A stretch of DNA of 64,000 nt. Origin: Muribaculaceae bacterium (GTDB lineage: Bacteria; Bacteroidota; Bacteroidia; Bacteroidales; Muribaculaceae). Made by a program: the position numbers and the translations under genes. Below, piece by piece: positions 5,903 through 53,825 of this stretch (positions are counted from its first letter, which is position 1; each line of letters opens with the position of its first letter). The stretch is taken from positions 1 to 64,000 of the forward strand of contig JAIDQZ010000010.1 in the NCBI GenBank assembly GCA_029062005.1, read 5' to 3'. The notes beneath the pieces are model-generated. The model was not told where the DNA came from. It saw only the letters and a program-made list of their open reading frames with translations, and did not search any database.

Positions 5903-5926
5903 TTTATAGTTAAATTATTGACTTTT

Positions 5927-6070
5927 TAGGGACGCACGGCTCGTGCGTCCTTTTTTTTCTCATGTATTACTACAATATGGCTAAGGACGGACGAGCCGTG
6001 CTATTTTCATTACAATTATGACATCCACTAATGCTTTCGGATGGCGGACGCACGCTCCGTGCGTCCCTAC
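5927..6070. repeat. Palindromic repeats, family A locus 2 (three units)
   Basis: A perfect palindrome unit at 5930-5950 is followed by a run of T's and can act as a terminator for the OPT gene. A decayed half unit ('GGACGGACGAGCCGTG') lies near 5986, and a third unit (GGACGCACG, centre variant CTC) lies at 6046-6066. From 6071 to 6209 I see no gene and no convincing promoter. Confidence 0.85.
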
Positions 6071-6209
6071 ATAGTCAAAGGCGTTGCTTTTTAATAATAT
6101 CGTATTCGTTTCTTAATAAAATTGCAACACGCAACAGAATGCAAGGGTGTTATAATGGCATAGAAAGACACACAACACACTGAAAAACAGACTTAACACC
6201 TTAACCACT

Positions 6210-8780: not shown

Positions 8781-8820
8781 TCAAGATTGAGAATTGAGGA
8801 TAATTTTTCAAACAAACAGG

Positions 8821-8852
8821 TAGGGACGCACGGCTCGTGCGTCCGCTTTTTT
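8821..8852 (+). terminator. Family A palindrome acting as terminator, locus 3
   Basis: A single perfect unit (8824-8844) is followed by GCTTTTTTG. It lies 43 nt after the stop of the small secreted protein, and no second unit is present. The position and T-run fit an intrinsic terminator. Confidence 0.75.
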
Positions 8853-8865
8853 GTATACGATTTTT

Positions 8866-8897
8866 TTTGCAAATCTCCATAATTATCACTAAATTTG
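8866..8897 (+). promoter_or_regulatory. Promoter of trpS (TTTG-N20-TAAATTTG)
   Basis: TTTG at 8866-8869 and TAAATTTG at 8890-8897 are separated by 20 nt, a full match to the Bacteroidetes -33/-7 consensus. The start codon of trpS follows 34 nt downstream. Confidence 0.8.
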
Positions 8898-8931
8898 CAT
8901 AAAATATAACAATAATATCTTATTTCATCTT

Positions 8932-11568: not shown

Positions 11569-11582
11569 TTGAGAACTAATAT

Positions 11583-11722
11583 TAATTGAGAATTGAGAAT
11601 TGAGAATTGAGAATTGAGTTTCTGCTTTGCAGCAAAAGAACCAAGAGTCAAGAGTCAAGGGTCAAGAATCAAGGGTCAAGCAAATTCTAAATTCTAAATT
11701 CTCAATTCTCAATTCTAAATTA
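11583..11722. repeat. Three different 7-mer arrays in one gap, family B
   Basis: A run of about five AATTGAG units (11583-11618) is followed by five CAAGAGT-like units (11642-11676) and then by about six AAATTCT/CTCAATT units (11681-11722), the inverse of the first. The array begins right behind the znuC stop. From 11723 to 11799 nothing else was recognised. Confidence 0.85.
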
Positions 11723-11799
11723 CAAAATGGGTGGGGAGCAACCTGCGGGCGCAACTGGAGTAACGGAATTATAACTAAGAATTTGAATATAGCTGAAAG

Positions 11800-21576: not shown

Positions 21577-21701
21577 TTGAGAATATTGAATTGAGAATTG
21601 AGGGATACTGGAATTAGGATGATGTGAATCACTTTTCTGCAAAAAGCCATATCATACTCCTGAAGATGTTTTTCTCAATTCTCTATTAACAATTCTCAAT
21701 T
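21574..21701. repeat. Inverted AATTGAG / CTCAATT arms, family B
   Basis: AATTGAG-type units start at the carB stop (21574-21603) and the complementary CTCAATT-type units lie at 21673-21701, with a centre of about 70 nt that contains no gene. Transcribed RNA could fold these arms together. Confidence 0.75.
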
Positions 21702-21707
21702 AAAAAA

Positions 21708-25947: not shown

Positions 25948-25950
25948 GAT

Positions 25951-26146
25951 TGTGGAGTTTTGGGGTTGTTAAGTTGTGAGGTTGTGGGGTTGTGAGGTTT
26001 GGATATGTATGGATTTGCGGGCTTGATGTTCCGGACTACTGAAATCTAAAACACAACTCCTCTACGACCAAACAACCAAACAACCACAAAACCCCAAAAC
26101 CCCAACAACTCCACAACCCAACAACCTCAAAACCCCACAACTACAG
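25951..26146. repeat. Inverted G-rich / C-rich short-unit arms, family B variant
   Basis: The left arm (about 25951-26000) is made of GTTGTGGGGTTGTGAGG-like units. The right arm (about 26060-26146) is its inverse (ACAACCTCAAAACCCCACAA). The centre of about 60 nt shows no gene. This is the same arrangement as the AT-rich loci, with another unit sequence. Confidence 0.8.
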
Positions 26147-26155
26147 GTAAAAATT

Positions 26156-36198: not shown

Positions 36199-36206
36199 GA
36201 AGTATG

Positions 36207-36237
36207 AATTTTGAATTTCCATTTAAAATTCAAAATT
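36207..36237. repeat. Short inverted AATTTTGAATTT arms, family B
   Basis: AATTTTGAATTT (36207-36218) and AAATTCAAAATT (36226-36237) are perfect inverse copies 7 nt apart, directly after the regulator stop. It is the smallest inverted family B locus in the window. Confidence 0.7.
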
Positions 36238-36265
36238 TATCATTGGAATAATTGCTGTCCCGACA

Positions 36266-36415
36266 GGGACGCACATCATGCGTCCGCCATCCTTAGCATA
36301 AAAAAATGCTGTGTATTATGTCGATAGCAAAACGGACGCTCAAAATTGCTGTGCATAATGCCGAATGCTAAAACGGACGCACGAGCCGTGCGTCCCTACC
36401 ATGCTATCGAAATAA
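36266..36415. repeat. Family A element, locus 4, with conserved spacer
   Basis: A variant palindrome (36267-36285, centre ATCAT) and a full palindrome (36375-36395) enclose a spacer with two direct copies of GCTGTGTATTATGTCGATAGC / GCTGTGCATAATGCCGAATGC-like units, each followed by AAAACGGACGC. The right flank 'GCTATCGAAATAATT' recurs at loci 5 and 8, so the element extends about 20 nt beyond the last palindrome. Confidence 0.85.
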
Positions 36416-36447
36416 TTCAGAATTAAAACTGTTTTAGGTAAAAAGAT

Positions 36448-38870: not shown

Positions 38871-38874
38871 AATT

Positions 38875-39398
38875 GTTTAATCGTTTAATTGTTTAACTGT
38901 TTAGTTCGGACTCTTTGTTTAATTGTTTAGTTCAATAAGAGATTGACCATGAATTTATTCTCATTTGAAAAGCTTGACGCTTACCAAGAATCTCGTAAAC
39001 TTGCAGTGGAAGTTTATAGGATAATACAGGAATTACCAAGCTATGAAAGATTCGATCTTGGATCTCAGTTAAGAAGATCTATCATATCAGTTTCTTCTAA
39101 TATAGCTGAAGGCTGTGGTAGAGTATCTTTACGGGAAAAGATTCATTTTTTAGAAATCGCTTATGGATCTATGCTTGAAGCATACAGTCAAATCCAATTG
39201 AGTGTGGATTTAAACTATACACATCCAGAAAGAATGACTATGCTTCAGCCTAAATTTTCGTATGTGGCTAATCTTATAAACTCGTTGAGAAAATCATATA
39301 TGATAAAATTAGAAAATAATAATCAAAAATCCACTCCAAATCAAAATTCTCAGTCAAATTCAAATAAACTAAACGATTAAACAATTAAACGATTAAAC
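38875..39398. mobile_element. IVS-like unit 1: 32-bp inverted arms around a four-helix-bundle gene
   Basis: The left arm (38875-38906, starting GTTTAATCGTTTAATTGTTT) and right arm (39367-39398) are inverse copies with 30 of 32 matches. They enclose one four-helix-bundle gene whose stop codon lies inside the right arm. The unit fills the purE/purL gap completely: 4 nt to the purE stop, 14 nt to purL. A shorter extra copy of the left motif lies at 38915-38933. No target duplication or transposase was seen. Confidence 0.65.
38949..39380 (+). CDS. Four-helix-bundle protein (S23 / 23S rRNA IVS-protein family)
   Basis: The 143-residue product belongs to the S23 family (TIGR02436/PF05635 type), seen in 'LGSQLRRSIISVSSNIAEGCGR' (second helix) and 'EIAYGSMLEAYSQIQL'. 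Members are small four-helix bundles that form pentamers, are encoded in intervening sequences of 23S rRNA in some bacteria, and include the Avd protein of retroelements. Their biochemical role is not settled. The last 20 residues are Asn/Gln/Ser-rich and partly encoded by the right repeat arm. The gene is visibly richer in A and T than purE and purL. The start is ATG 38949. Confidence 0.9.
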   Translation: MNLFSFEKLDAYQESRKLAVEVYRIIQELPSYERFDLGSQLRRSIISVSSNIAEGCGRVSLREKIHFLEIAYGSMLEAYSQIQLSVDLNYTHPERMTMLQPKFSYVANLINSLRKSYMIKLENNNQKSTPNQNSQSNSNKLND

Positions 39399-42400: not shown

Positions 42401-43096
42401 TGCAATCTCACTCCGGAACAGACACGTGAATCCGTAGCTACAATGGCACACATGATCGACGAGTGCCACGTGCTTGCATTCAGCGGCGGCTTCTCACTTG
42501 GCGACGAACCAGACGGAAGCGGTAAGTTTATAGCAAGCGTCATCATGAACGAAGCTGTGAAAGAAGCAATCGAGCGACTGCTGAAACGTGGCGGTCTCGT
42601 GATCGGTATCTGCAACGGTTTCCAGGCTCTCGTAAAGTCAGGACTTCTCCCCTTCGGCAAGATAGGCGAACTCTCGGCAGAAAGCCCGACACTCTTCCGA
42701 AACGACATCAACCGCCACATATCTCAGATAGCCGTCACACGCGTCGGAAGCATCGCCTCCCCATGGCTCGACGGCTTCTCTATAGGTCAGCTCCATTCCA
42801 TCGCCGTATCGCATGGCGAGGGTAAGTTTACAGCGAGTGCGGAGCTTGTTAAGCAGCTTTCAGAAGCCGGTCAGATAGCGTTCCAGTATGCCGATGCCGA
42901 CGGCAATGCCACAATGACGAGTCCATTCAACCCTAACGGATCAACCGACGCGATAGAAGGCATCATCAGCCCCTGCGGTCAGATTCTCGGCAAGATGGGA
43001 CACTCGGAGAGATATGATGAAGGTCTGATGAAAAACATCTCAGGCGACAAACGTCAGAATCTCTTTGCTAACGCAGTTAAATACTTCAAAAAATAA
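39413..43096 (+). CDS. purL: Phosphoribosylformylglycinamidine synthase (single-chain)
   Basis: The 1227-residue enzyme converts FGAR to FGAM with glutamine and ATP. It is the large single-chain form: an N-terminal PurS-like part, two AIRS-like halves with 'SDHCRHTTF' and 'NETHNHPTEIEPFGGASTCLGG', and a C-terminal class I glutaminase domain with 'PVFPGTNCDYDM' and nucleophile Cys in 'GICNGFQAL'. No separate purS or purQ is therefore needed. It lies between the first IVS-like unit and purM. Confidence 0.96.
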   Translation: MNKNKRIFVEKSGAYRVEADSLRRELNENLGLDIKDLRLICVYDVFNADPALVEEAKYRVFGEPATDTVCEDFDLDGKKYLAVECLPGQFDQRASSAEDCVKLIDPTSQAEIRSARLMIFDDGVSDEDLEKIAHYTINAVESRKKDMTVLCPPERATASPVKELTGFRDITPDKASAYIKEMGLAMNDADLMTVVDYFKNEGRDPKETELRILDTYWSDHCRHTTFMTELTDIEVEDSPVADDIRTTLELYRQMRKDLGREEKRLCLMDLACIGARWLKKQGILDDQEESEENNACSIVIDVDTENGGSEKWLLMFKNETHNHPTEIEPFGGASTCLGGAIRDPLSGRSYVYQAMRVTGAGDIYKPVSETMQGKLPQRVISKRAAAGYSSYGNQIGLATTHVREIFHPNYVAKRLEVGAVVGAVKQADVRRERPAAGDVILMFGGRTGRDGIGGATGSSKEHNVSSLEQCGSEVQKGNAPEERKIERLFHRPEVTRLIKKSNDFGAGGVSVAIGELADGLDIYLDRVPVKYSGLNATELAISESQERMSVVVEKKDMDEFIKYCHEENLEVTHVADVTDRGRMRMMMNGEVVADLSREFIDSAGATRKACVRISAVTPEMPHKTPASFEEMLSDDNVTSQKGLIEMFDSTIGASTVLMPFGGKTQGTETQVSVQKLPTGGYTNTASMMAYGFNPFISEWSPYHGAAYAVVEAVAKVAAAGGDTTRMRFSYQEYFERMHSDKSWGKPAAALLGALKMQKEFGLPSIGGKDSMSGTFADISVPPTLIAFGIVPVDARDVISPEFKEAGDTLYLLEAKPLANGMPDTDRLKENFATIHEDIKSGRIKAAYALGFGGLGEAVAKMSFGNEIGAVVEYPENDLYKWNYGAILVESAEKLGDAYLPIGATIADPILDINGVRKEISVLKEANSARFNEIYPDHADTKGTAENATSGENKTVWKGEPVEHPVVYLPVFPGTNCDYDMIRAFSREGAECTTSVFCNLTPEQTRESVATMAHMIDECHVLAFSGGFSLGDEPDGSGKFIASVIMNEAVKEAIERLLKRGGLVIGICNGFQALVKSGLLPFGKIGELSAESPTLFRNDINRHISQIAVTRVGSIASPWLDGFSIGQLHSIAVSHGEGKFTASAELVKQLSEAGQIAFQYADADGNATMTSPFNPNGSTDAIEGIISPCGQILGKMGHSERYDEGLMKNISGDKRQNLFANAVKYFKK

Positions 43097-43195
43097 TTTA
43101 GAATTTAGAATTGAGAATTACCCGGCTCGAAAGAATTTTCAACTTTCAATTCTCCACTCAAAAATTCTCAATTCTCAATTCACAATTCTCAATAA
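43095..43195. repeat. Inverted TTTAGAA/AATTGAG arms between purL and purM, family B
   Basis: TTTAGAATTTAGAATTGAG units (43095-43119) are followed after about 15 nt by the inverse CTCAATT units (43134-43195). The ORF track extends purM through this array, which is an artefact. Confidence 0.75.
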
Positions 43196-44229: not shown

Positions 44230-44396
44230 TAAGTTTAAAAGGTTTAGAAGGTTTAATTGGTTTAATTGGTTTAGGTTGTTTAGGTAGTTTAGACCTCATA
44301 AACAACTCCAACTACTCAACAACCCAACAACCTCAAAACTCAACAACCTCAAAACTCAAAAACCCAATAACTCAACAACTCAACAACCCCAATATA
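44230..44396. repeat. Inverted GGTTTAATT / CAACAACCT arms between purM and purH, family B
   Basis: The left part (44230-44283) is a run of GGTTTAATT and GTTTAGGTT units. The right part (44300-44396) is a run of CAACAACCTCAAAACT units. They are roughly inverse to each other and meet the purH start codon with 2 nt to spare. Confidence 0.75.
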
Positions 44397-44398
44397 TA

Positions 44399-47272: not shown

Positions 47273-47282
47273 ATCATAAAAA

Positions 47283-47513
47283 ATAATTGAGAATTGAGAA
47301 TTTTGAATCTATCATACATCTTTGCAAATAATTACGGTCTCGGTAGGGACGTACGGCTCGTGCGTCCGCGATCCGAAATATGCAAATGCTGTGTATAATG
47401 CCAATTGCTATGCGGACGCACGGGCCGTGCGTCCCTACCCGGCTATTGAAATAATTCTCAATTCAAAACTACTTTAGATTCTCAATTATTCAAAATTCTT
47501 AATTATAAATTGC
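47283..47513. repeat. Family B arms around a family A element in the purD/purB gap
   Basis: AATTGAG-type units (47283-47308) and the inverse CTCAATT/AAATTCT-type units (47454-47513) flank the palindromic doublet listed separately. The purB start codon follows 3 nt after the right arm. Confidence 0.7.
47342..47455. repeat. Family A element, locus 5, with conserved spacer and right flank
   Basis: Palindromes at 47347-47367 (one base changed, GTACG) and 47414-47434 (centre GGG) enclose a spacer with 'GCTGTGTATAATGCC', the same as at locus 4. The right flank 'GGCTATTGAAATAATT' is shared with loci 4 and 8. Confidence 0.85.
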
Positions 47514-47516
47514 AAT

Positions 47517-48812
47517 ATGACTGACAGATACGGAAGAGACGTGATGCGTCGCGTCTGGACTGAAAAGAATAAATTTGACGCCTATCTCAAGGTGGAGATC
47601 CTTGCCGCAGAGGCGTGGAGCAAACTTGGTGTCATTCCGGAGGAAGATGTGAAAAAACTCTGGGACAAAGCCACCTTCGACATCGACAGGATTAAGGAAA
47701 TCGAGCTTCAGACCCGGCACGATGTAGTGGCATTCACCCGTGCCGTCAGCGAGAGTCTCGGCGAGGAACGCAAGTGGGTGCACTACGGACTGACTTCCAC
47801 CGATGTGGTGGACACGGCAAACGGATACCTCTTCAAGCAGGCTGATGAAATAATCCGTGAAGACCTTGAGAAATTCTGCGAGATGCTTAAGAAACAGGCA
47901 ATACGCTTCAAAAATCTCCCTTGCATCGGACGTACCCACGGCATACATGCCGACATCACGAGCTTCGGCTTGAAATGGGTGCTATGGCTCGCTGAGATGA
48001 AACGCAACGTGGAGCGATTCAATCTCGCTGCCGCAGGGGTTGAGGTAGGCAAACTGAGCGGTGCCGTTGGTAACTTCGCAAACATCCCTCCGTTTATTCA
48101 GGATTATGTATGCGAACACCTCGGCATCAACTCCGCTGACGTTTCCACACAGGTGATACAGCGCGACCGCCATGCCTACTATATGGCTACACTCGCCGTG
48201 ATAGCATCCTCGCTTGAACAGATGGCAATGGAAGTGCGCAACCTTCAGCGCACCGAGGTGCATGAAGTGGAAGAGGCATTCGGCAAAGGACAGAAGGGAT
48301 CGAGTGCCATGCCCCATAAGCGCAATCCGATCGGCAGCGAGAATATATGCGGCTGTGCCCGCGTGATGCGCGGATATATGGCAACTGCATATGAAAACGT
48401 CGCACTCTGGCATGAGCGTGACATTTCCCACTCAGCCACCGAACGCATCATCATGCCAGACGCCACGATCCTTCTCGACTATATGCTCAACCGCATGATG
48501 GGTATTCTTGAAAATCTGACCATCTTCGAAGACAAGATGAAGGCGGATATCTATATGACCAATGGCGTCATCTTCGCCCAGCGCGTCATGAACGCCCTGA
48601 TCGGCAAAGGTTGGGTTCGCGAACAGGCTTATGACACCGTGCAACCGGTAGCCATGAAAGCAATGGCAACCGGAAGCAACTACCAAGACCTCCTTCTCCA
48701 GACCCCGGCAGTCATGGAAATGCTGACTCCCGAAGAACTCGAAGCATGCTTCACTCTCGATTACTATCTCAAGAACGTCGATTACATCTACAAAAGAAAC
48801 AAAGTTGAATAA
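47517..48812 (+). CDS. purB: Adenylosuccinate lyase
   Basis: The 431-residue enzyme cleaves SAICAR in the IMP pathway and adenylosuccinate in the AMP branch. It is a fumarase/aspartase superfamily member with '[12 protein letters not shown]', '[11 protein letters not shown]' and the signature loop '[11 protein letters not shown]'. It lies directly before the second IVS-like unit, which separates it from purA. Confidence 0.96.
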
Positions 48813-49302
48813 TTTTGAATTTTGAATTTTGAATTTAGAATTATGGGAAAGAGAGAAGACAATGTTGTTCTTACAAAAGCAATGGATTTCGCTGTGAGGA
48901 TTGTAAAACTTTGCAAATATCTTTCTACTGAAAAGAAAGAATATGTACTTTCCAAACAACTCTTAAGATGTGGAACATCCATTGGAGCAAATCTTTATGA
49001 AGCAAACGAAGGCTTCTCTGATAAGGATTTCCAATACAAGATATATATATCTTTAAAAGAAGCAAGAGAAACTGAATATTGGCTGGAACTTATGTTTCGG
49101 ACTGACTATATAAGTCACAAGGAATATGAGAGCATAAATGCAGACTGCGTAGAATTGCTCAAACTTCTTGTAAGCATAACTAAAACTTTGAATAGTAAGA
49201 CATCTGACCCGGAAACAAATTATTTATTCTGAATTCAATCAACACGTGATTCAAAATATTCAATTAGAATAATTCAAAATTCTAAATTAAAAATTCTAAA
49301 TT
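48813..49302. mobile_element. IVS-like unit 2: AT-rich inverted arms around a four-helix-bundle gene
   Basis: The left arm (48813-48842, TTTTGAATTTTGAATTTTGA-type) starts on the base after the purB stop, and its last base abuts the ATG of the enclosed gene. The right arm (about 49250-49302) carries the inverse units AATTCAAAATTCTAAATT, with roughly 24 of 30 matches to the left arm, and ends 3 nt before purA. The arrangement repeats that of unit 1 with a different arm sequence. Confidence 0.6.
48843..49232 (+). CDS. Four-helix-bundle protein (S23 family), second copy
   Basis: The 129-residue product is an S23-type four-helix bundle: 'LSKQLLRCGTSIGANLYEAN' and 'DFQYKIYISLKEARETEYWL' are the conserved helix 2 and helix 3 segments. 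It is clearly diverged from the copy between purE and purL, so the two are not a recent local duplication. The ORF track starts at TTG 48822 inside the repeat arm; ATG 48843 is chosen. Like the first copy it is richer in A and T than its neighbours. Its role is unknown. Confidence 0.9.
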   Translation: MGKREDNVVLTKAMDFAVRIVKLCKYLSTEKKEYVLSKQLLRCGTSIGANLYEANEGFSDKDFQYKIYISLKEARETEYWLELMFRTDYISHKEYESINADCVELLKLLVSITKTLNSKTSDPETNYLF

Positions 49303-49305
49303 ATC

Positions 49306-50598
49306 ATGAGCGAACGATTAGTTGTCACCGGCTCACAGTGGGGAGACGAGGGCAAAGGAAAGATTACCGACTATTTCGCATGCCGCGCCGACATGGTGGT
49401 ACGCTATCAGGGCGGCAACAACGCCGGACATTCCGTAATGTTCGACGGTCATAAATACTCTCTCCAGAGTATTCCCTCCGGCATCTTCAACCCTAAGACC
49501 GTCAATGTAATGGCAAACGGCATGGTGGTGAATCCCGTCTCAGTGATAGCTGAGCTGGAAAAACTCCATAATCAGGGTATCACTGATTATCAGCTATATA
49601 TATCTGATCGGGCAGCCATGGTGATGCCGTGGCACAGCATGCTTGACGGAGCAAGCGAAAGCCTGAAGGGAGACGCGAAGATAGGCACTACAAAGAAAGG
49701 TATCGGTCCGGCTTATACCGACAAATATTCACGTCTCGGACTCCGGATGGGCGATCTTCTTGATCCCGAATACTTTGCAGAACGCCTCAAAGCTGCGCTC
49801 GAAGTGAAGAATATGGAACTCAAGATGTACGGTCTCGAACCTCTCGACTATCAGCAGGTCTACGATCAATATATGGAGATAGCGAAAGTGCTCGGACCTC
49901 GCATCTGCGACACAAGCCTTCTTATCGACGATGCGATCCACACCGATGCGAAGATCCTTTTCGAAGGAGCACAGGGCATGATGCTCTGCATCGACCATGG
50001 CACATATCCTTATGTCACATCATCATGTCCTTCAGCCGCCAGCATCTCTCAGGGCGCAGGAATCGCACCTAAATGGATCGAGAACGTTGTCGGTGTCGCC
50101 AAGGCATACTGCACGCGTGTGGGAGAAGGACCATTTCCCACGGAGCTCTTTGATGAAACGGCACATGAGATACGCGAACGTGGTCATGAATACGGTACTG
50201 TCACCGGACGTCCTCGCCGTATCGGATGGTTTGATGCTGTTGTGGCGCGCTACACTGCCCGGCTTGCAGGTATCGACTATTGGGCACTTATGCTTTTCGA
50301 TGTCCTCTCAGGTCTCGACAAGGTAAAGATATGCGTGGGCTACGAACTCGAAGGCAAGGAAGTAATGGCTCCCCCTTCCACCATCCACAAGCTTGCACAG
50401 TGCAAACCCGTCTACATTGAGATGGAAGGCTGGAAGGAAGATATCACCGGTTGTAAAAGCTATGACGAGCTCCCTGAGGCAGCGAAGGCATATGTAAGAA
50501 AGATCGAGGAACTCACCGGCACAAAGGTAGGCATCATTTCCGTCGGACCCGACCGTTCCCAGACCATCATGATCTCCGAAAAGCTAAAAGCATTTTAA
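49306..50598 (+). CDS. purA: Adenylosuccinate synthetase
   Basis: The 430-residue enzyme joins IMP and aspartate with GTP in the AMP branch. The P-loop is 'GSQWGDEGKGK' at the N-terminus, with catalytic Asp in it and His in 'NNAGHSV'; 'TGRPRRIGWFD' is the GTP/IMP-binding region. The length is normal. It begins right after the second IVS-like unit. Confidence 0.96.
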   Translation: MSERLVVTGSQWGDEGKGKITDYFACRADMVVRYQGGNNAGHSVMFDGHKYSLQSIPSGIFNPKTVNVMANGMVVNPVSVIAELEKLHNQGITDYQLYISDRAAMVMPWHSMLDGASESLKGDAKIGTTKKGIGPAYTDKYSRLGLRMGDLLDPEYFAERLKAALEVKNMELKMYGLEPLDYQQVYDQYMEIAKVLGPRICDTSLLIDDAIHTDAKILFEGAQGMMLCIDHGTYPYVTSSCPSAASISQGAGIAPKWIENVVGVAKAYCTRVGEGPFPTELFDETAHEIRERGHEYGTVTGRPRRIGWFDAVVARYTARLAGIDYWALMLFDVLSGLDKVKICVGYELEGKEVMAPPSTIHKLAQCKPVYIEMEGWKEDITGCKSYDELPEAAKAYVRKIEELTGTKVGIISVGPDRSQTIMISEKLKAF

Positions 50599-53720: not shown

Positions 53721-53778
53721 GACCCCATCTCATAAAATATTTTTTAATTTTGAAATCTAAGTTCAAAATAAATGACCT

Positions 53779-53809
53779 AAAAAGGACGCACGGCTCGTGC
53801 GTCCTTTTT
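53779..53809. terminator. Family A palindrome as bidirectional terminator, locus 6
   Basis: A single perfect palindrome (53784-53804) is flanked by AAAAA on the left and TTTTT on the right. It lies between the convergent guaA (plus) and GH2 (minus) genes and has the form of an intrinsic terminator on both strands. Confidence 0.85.
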
Positions 53810-53825
53810 AATGTTCCTAATTATA

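Follow-up and report, generated by a model that had tools for sequence, protein, structure and literature searches.

The window, the whole stretch of 64,000 nucleotides analysed here (contig JAIDQZ010000010.1 of a Muribaculaceae bacterium, genome G000), carries between purB and purA a gap (48813-49305) filled by an S23-family gene and two inverse arms (Table 1). The gene on the left is taken to be purB, as in an earlier reading of the DNA. The S23 product matched PF05635, its sole Pfam match (E 3.8e-30; 104.7 bits versus a curated cut-off of 33.8), and TIGR02436 (S23, four helix bundle protein; E 2.9e-32; 111.1 bits versus a cut-off of 24), which bears out the original prediction that a diverged S23 gene fills this gap. 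The only solved relative found by sequence was 2rld (E 2.1e-38). The left arm (AATTTTGAATTTTGAATTTTGAATTTAGAATT) directly adjoins the purB stop and the S23 start codon; the TTTTGAA units and the contact of the arms with both neighbouring genes are as first described. Local alignment of the left flank with the reverse complement of the right flank scored 24, and flanks paired from different loci reached 15 in only 2/97 cases, which rules out chance for the inverse arms. The unit lies outside the 16S and 23S rRNA genes, and there was no Rfam match anywhere in the window. Only the S23 gene lies between the arms, with no transposase or recombinase inside the unit. No target-site duplication was definable at purB/purA, where the empty gap of relatives is only 10-11 bp.

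Table 1. Features of the two S23 units and of two solo arm pairs in the window.
Feature	Position	Strand	Description
Solo inverse arms	11584-11721	none	TTGAGAA / AATTCTC; without S23 gene
Left arm of first S23 unit	38871-38942	none	period 8, GTTTAATT/C
First S23 gene of window	38949-39380	+	the one further S23 unit of the window
Right arm of first S23 unit	39370-39398	none	overlaps last codons of its S23 gene
Solo inverse arms, purL/purM gap	43095-43193	none	without S23 gene
purB, left neighbour	47517-48812	+	translation
Left arm	48811-48842	none	about 4.5 units, period 7: TTTTGAA x3 + TTTAGAA; G-bearing strand inward
S23-family gene	48843-49232	+	129 aa; four helix bundle / 23S_rRNA_IVP; profile matches, PDB relative 2rld
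Degenerate inner continuation of right arm	49233-49270	none	ATTCAAAAT-like pieces
Right arm	49271-49302	none	inverse of left arm in vocabulary; ends 3 bases before purA ATG
purA, right neighbour	49306-50598	+	translation; relatives found in other genomes

The genome has five PF05635 matches in all. The original prediction had contrasted the purB/purA arms with those of the first S23 unit of the window; the arms are indeed different, but the first unit has period 8, not 7. Inverse heptad arms are not restricted to S23 gaps: many gaps of the window have inverse arms of period 7 to 9 without an S23 gene, for example 11569-11799, 21577-21707, 25948-26155, purL/purM, and purA/guaB. The solo inverse arms at 25948-26155 and 44230-44398, likewise without an S23 gene, consist of G/T-rich units of period 8-9 (GGTTGTG-like, GGTTTAATT) with C/A-rich partners. 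A GC-rich palindrome of the GGGACGCACGGCTCGTGCGTCC type also recurs in window gaps, often as an inverse pair (1655-1857, 5903-6209, 8781-8931, 36199-36447, 47273-47516, and 53721-53825).

The layout was examined in 109 S23 open reading frames of the genus and family, of which 97 were usable and 12 were dropped for short flanks or a length outside 100-160 aa. The 200 bp upstream was aligned with the reverse complement of the 200 bp downstream, and a score of at least 15 counted as a match. Inverse flank matches were found in 64/97 S23 genes and in 2/97 pairings of flanks from different loci (Fisher p 1e-23); direct, non-inverse matches were found in 14/97. A wider scan of named genomes, from which the best 80 of at least 576 S23 loci were taken (3 dropped, 77 usable), gave 48/77 inverse matches against 0/77 for mismatched loci (Fisher p 1e-19). 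The passing loci of this wide sample include records titled, as deposited, Flavobacterium, Chryseobacterium, Clostridia, Selenomonadales, Nitrospirae, Verrucomicrobia, Betaproteobacteria, Oryzomonas, and Peregrinibacteria. About one third of the loci had no matching arms at this threshold (33/97 in the genus and family; 29/77 among the best 80 of at least 576). When one identical procedure was applied to all genes of the stretches, 38/62 S23 genes passed versus 21/589 other genes (p 4e-30), with 4/174 small non-S23 genes (80-200 aa) passing. The 61 stretches (862 kb) contained 284 arrays of period 6-10, 214 of them with period 7; block-shuffled sequence contained 3. A chance origin of the layout is rejected by the excess of flank matches in both samples, by the S23 specificity, and by the difference from shuffled sequence. 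The unit is real and unusually well marked, and its layout, which recurs in many phyla, suggests a small mobile DNA unit of a kind not yet described. A literature search, mostly of freely readable papers, found no description of S23 genes in inverse heptad arms outside rRNA.

Among the 88 loci that were periodic on both sides, a period of 7 was found in 74, of 8 in 12, and of 9 in 2; each arm had about 4.5 copies. The upstream arm had more G than C in 101/113 loci (the reverse in 10, equal in 2), and since the right arm is the inverse of the left, the G-rich strand of either arm faces inward. The polarity was weaker when derived from arrays in S23-enclosing pairs (n = 40; 27 inward-G, 11 inward-C, 2 equal). 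Convergent gaps without S23 had 6 inward-G versus 0 inward-C pairs, from four places only, and convergent S23-enclosing gaps had 2 inward-G, 0 inward-C, and one equal. An origin of the polarity in the avoidance of G near start codons is weakened because the convergent S23-less gaps are also inward-G. Where unit variants were numerous enough for a comparison (65 loci), the real unit order scored 22.47 and shuffled order 22.35, with P ≤0.05 in 2/65. The two arms therefore share a vocabulary but not an order, which speaks against the copying of one arm into the other by fold-back. Replication slippage combined with such fold-back copying in AT-rich gaps, with the S23 gene as a bystander, would fit the dominance of period 7, the known slippage of short tandem arrays, and the variation in heptamer number beside the S23 gene among Coxiella strains described in PMC4990558. 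Nevertheless, we regard it as very unlikely given the missing mirrored order, the near absence of arrays from shuffled sequence, the S23 specificity, and the covariation of arms with protein described below.

The arms could alternatively act in RNA, pairing into an mRNA stem by which S23 would be separated from the rest of the operon transcript, for example through cutting by RNase III. Intervening sequences of 23S rRNA hold an S23 gene in the loop of a terminal stem that is cut by RNase III (PMC4990558), the purB/purA unit as RNA folds better than its shuffles (z -3.74 on the + strand, -2.31 on the - strand), and S23 is co-directional with both neighbours in 66/98 and 52/70 loci. Mismatches between the arms of loci scoring at least 15, however, comprised 87 G-T versus 100 A-C (p 0.38), which gives no sign of RNA wobble; the unit order is unmirrored; and the inward-G polarity also occurs in convergent gaps. 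A stem kept by RNA pairing is thus weakened, and we consider this explanation improbable. The original description of the unit as resembling an intervening sequence holds for an S23 gene inside a terminal inverted repeat, but its RNA sense is unsupported by the mismatch and unit-order comparisons.

Arm wording follows S23 relatedness across sites and genomes. Armed loci were compared two by two, each pair coming from different genomes of the genus and family and from sites that also differ. Arms were shared in 11/15 pairs with S23 identity >65%, 3/78 at 55-65%, 19/376 at 45-55%, 8/489 at 35-45%, 0/247 at 25-35%, and 3/869 at ≤25%; permutation of labels gave 0/500. By our reading, the 15 closest pairs, 11 of them sharing arms, represent only about seven independent clusters. 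For 58 genome pairs, S23 pairs of both kinds, close and distant, were available, and arms were shared more often by the close ones (p 7.6e-8). The trend was weaker in the wide set of the best 80 of at least 576 loci (permutation 5/500). At the same site, with 2 duplicate loci dropped, armed pairs shared arms in 4/5 cases at S23 identity ≥85%, 2/3 at 75-85%, 4/14 at 60-75%, and 1/3 below. The proposal that arm sequence is specific to each protein is thus supported, S23 clades and arm units co-vary both across sites and within genome pairs, and the opposite outcome, no relation between clade and arm unit with vertical inheritance together with the pur genes, was not found. One pair of loci (L098/L102), with similar arms and 66% S23 identity, is a poor fit to strict linkage of arm and protein.

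The purB/purA gap itself differs among close relatives. The purA gene was found in 99/111 genomes of the genus; in sixteen genomes its identity to the window purA is only 45-49%, and in the others 70-99%. The gap was compared in the 16 closest genomes (purA 93-100% identical), 14 of which had purB and purA on one contig and two of which had contigs ending inside the gap; a further 14 loci, L139-L152, are not counted. The gap contained (i) 10-11 bp only, that is, the empty site for which the original prediction had called, in G070 and G104; (ii) solo inverse arms, with GAGAATT-type units in G071 and G086 and TGCACAA-type units in G056; (iii) 9-bp arrays in G065, G063, G090, G091, and G036; (iv) the GGGACGCACGGCTCGTGCGTCC-type GC-rich palindrome in G064 and G067, and also in G066; and (v) S23 units in the window genome and G084. 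The S23 proteins of the last two genomes are 67% identical, and their purA is 98% identical; dS of the neighbours is 1.74-1.78 and that of S23 is saturated, a combination that fits vertical descent as well as replacement. The alternative that arms are made anew at each site holds insofar as sites are re-used: close relatives have the purB/purA gap empty, occupied by solo arms of other units, or carrying an S23 unit, and at a Flavobacterium site the entire unit differs between species whose neighbour genes are still close. Site re-use was found for L174 versus L166 (neighbour dS 0.71 and 0.62; S23 67% identical with saturated dS; different arms). In L219/L224, L170/L166, and L162/L168, S23 diverged in step with its neighbours, like ordinary vertical genes. 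The S23 gene is under purifying selection, with a median dN/dS of 0.064 in 26 same-site pairs. In L098/L102 (genomes G122 and G164), which occupy the same site with neighbour dS of 0.53 and 0.59, the arms are alike (cross score 25), and the S23 gene may have been exchanged between conserved arms.

Solo arms occur frequently, and their type tends to match that of the resident S23 arms. Genome-wide arrays were counted as summed matches to AATT-N3 repeated (four AATT) and to its read-backwards control, TTAA-N3. The median was 13 matches in 46 S23-bearing genomes versus 0 in 65 others (p 3e-7, kinship uncorrected). Genomes whose S23 arms are of AATT type had a median of 104.5 AATT matches versus 3.5 (8 versus 34 genomes; p 0.015, kinship uncorrected), and those with TTAA-type arms a median of 50 TTAA matches versus 0 (7 versus 35 genomes; p 0.0013, kinship uncorrected). 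Unbiased samples of contig starts contained 2.76 heptad arrays per 100 kb with S23 present versus 0.79 (p 0.052, kinship uncorrected). Two array-rich genomes, G080 (171 AATT heptad matches) and G090 (96), are 79-80% complete, and no full S23 gene was detected in them. In a third genome without a detected full S23 (G053), locus L245 has seven arrays within 20 kb, mostly of 9-bp AGAGGCATA-like units.

These arrays bear on a rival order of events, in which the arms come first: the host would have inverse heptad arrays as intergenic repeats in their own right, and S23 cassettes would insert into arms of matching wording or recombine between them. Frequent solo arms in the window and at the purB/purA gap, the agreement between the arm type of a genome and that of its S23 loci, the retained arms with differing S23 in L098/L102, and arrays in genomes without detected S23 such as G053, G080, and G090 all fit this order. 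Against it, heptad arrays are rarer where S23 is absent, arms at separate sites track the relatedness of their S23 genes, and no other gene is found inside arms nearly as often as S23, an excess that a passive landing pad leaves unaccounted for. The arms-first order is the second-best supported reading and, in our judgement, an unlikely one.

Best supported is a mobile unit: the purB/purA feature is probably a single copy of a small intergenic unit, S23 plus arms, that is mobile and has solo derivatives. Such a unit would consist of an S23 (PF05635) gene flanked on each side by a tandem array of about 7-bp units, the two arrays being inverse to each other, and a functional S23 protein would travel with its arms as one entity. 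Units would be inherited vertically for a time and then be inserted or replaced at gene gaps, and solo arm pairs would behave like non-autonomous or decayed copies. The architecture, its S23 specificity and spread over phyla, the covariation of arms with protein, the polymorphic gap, and the purifying selection are observed; a participation of S23 in the movement and a descent of the solo arms from S23 units are what we infer. Counting against this reading are the absence of a transposase or recombinase from the unit, the array-rich genomes G080 and G090, the weaker contig-start association, the third of S23 loci whose arms do not match, the same-site genes that diverge like their neighbours, and L098/L102. 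To our knowledge, S23 or four-helix-bundle genes, which occur in many phyla, have no known function; they now gain a testable genomic context, namely specific inverse heptad arms that follow the protein, plus solo arms.

On the best reading, the S23 unit is related to the intervening sequences of 23S rRNA but resides in gene gaps. In PMC4990558, the S23 intervening sequence of Coxiella burnetii is described as selfish and horizontally acquired, with tandem heptamers of strain-variable copy number directly upstream of the S23 start, and its S23 protein as decaying and probably not made. Both kinds of element thus have an S23-family gene between terminal inverted repeats and heptamers upstream of its start, and the Coxiella heptamers make it plausible that the rRNA and intergenic elements are one family. 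By contrast with the rRNA element as described there, the window-type unit lies in gaps of protein operons, both of its arms are heptad arrays, purifying selection on its S23 gene is strong, and S23-less solo arms are frequent. Intervening sequences, regarded as a peculiarity of rRNA genes, would thereby be joined to a much wider intergenic unit.

RAYT transposases are one gene family tied to many short intergenic inverted repeats whose class follows the protein. This REP/REPIN system is a functional parallel to the S23 unit, a gene family with short inverted repeats, and not a relative: S23 is a four-helix-bundle family without a transposase match, the HUH (Y1) transposase trait is absent from a protein whose only Pfam match is PF05635, and the arms are heptad arrays instead of single palindromes. 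An insertion sequence or MITE would have a transposase gene, a fixed terminal inverted repeat, and a target duplication; in the S23 unit, only S23 lies between the arms and the arm wording varies by locus. Intergenic heptamer arrays are also known as TAACTGA repeats, which occur in some Bacteroidetes and Cyanobacteria among others according to PMC4679880; unlike the S23 arms, these have one fixed unit in direct, not inverse, orientation, and the main text of that paper does not mention S23.

The unit raises a concrete question: by what process do arrays arise that are unlinked yet have one vocabulary and a fixed strand polarity? One speculative answer, which we rate as rather improbable, is that the arms are written and not copied: a system involving S23 would extend each 3' end at a DNA break with G-rich repeats of about 7 nt, whose wording would come from a single template having a few variants; the break would then be closed with or without an S23 gene. 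Writing of this kind would produce both solo arms and inverse arms that have one vocabulary, an unlinked unit order, inward G-rich strands, and a wording in step with the S23 clade; if true, it would be a bacterial, telomere-like addition of repeats at internal sites. PF05635 has been reported to resemble Avd, a protein of diversity-generating retroelements, with homology suggested by sequence and structure alignment (PMC10053308). Unlike those retroelements, the window genome (95.7% complete) had no reverse transcriptase (PF00078) at E 1e-8, nor had 9/13 array-rich genomes. Such an enzyme as arm writer is unsupported, with one present in 4/13 array-rich and 3/8 array-poor genomes, and the writer in the window genome would accordingly be a host polymerase or an unrecognised enzyme. 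Weak PF05635 matches of about 26-36 bits, mostly to model positions 1-74, were present in many genomes in proteins of about 180-280 aa, which are probably a different protein.
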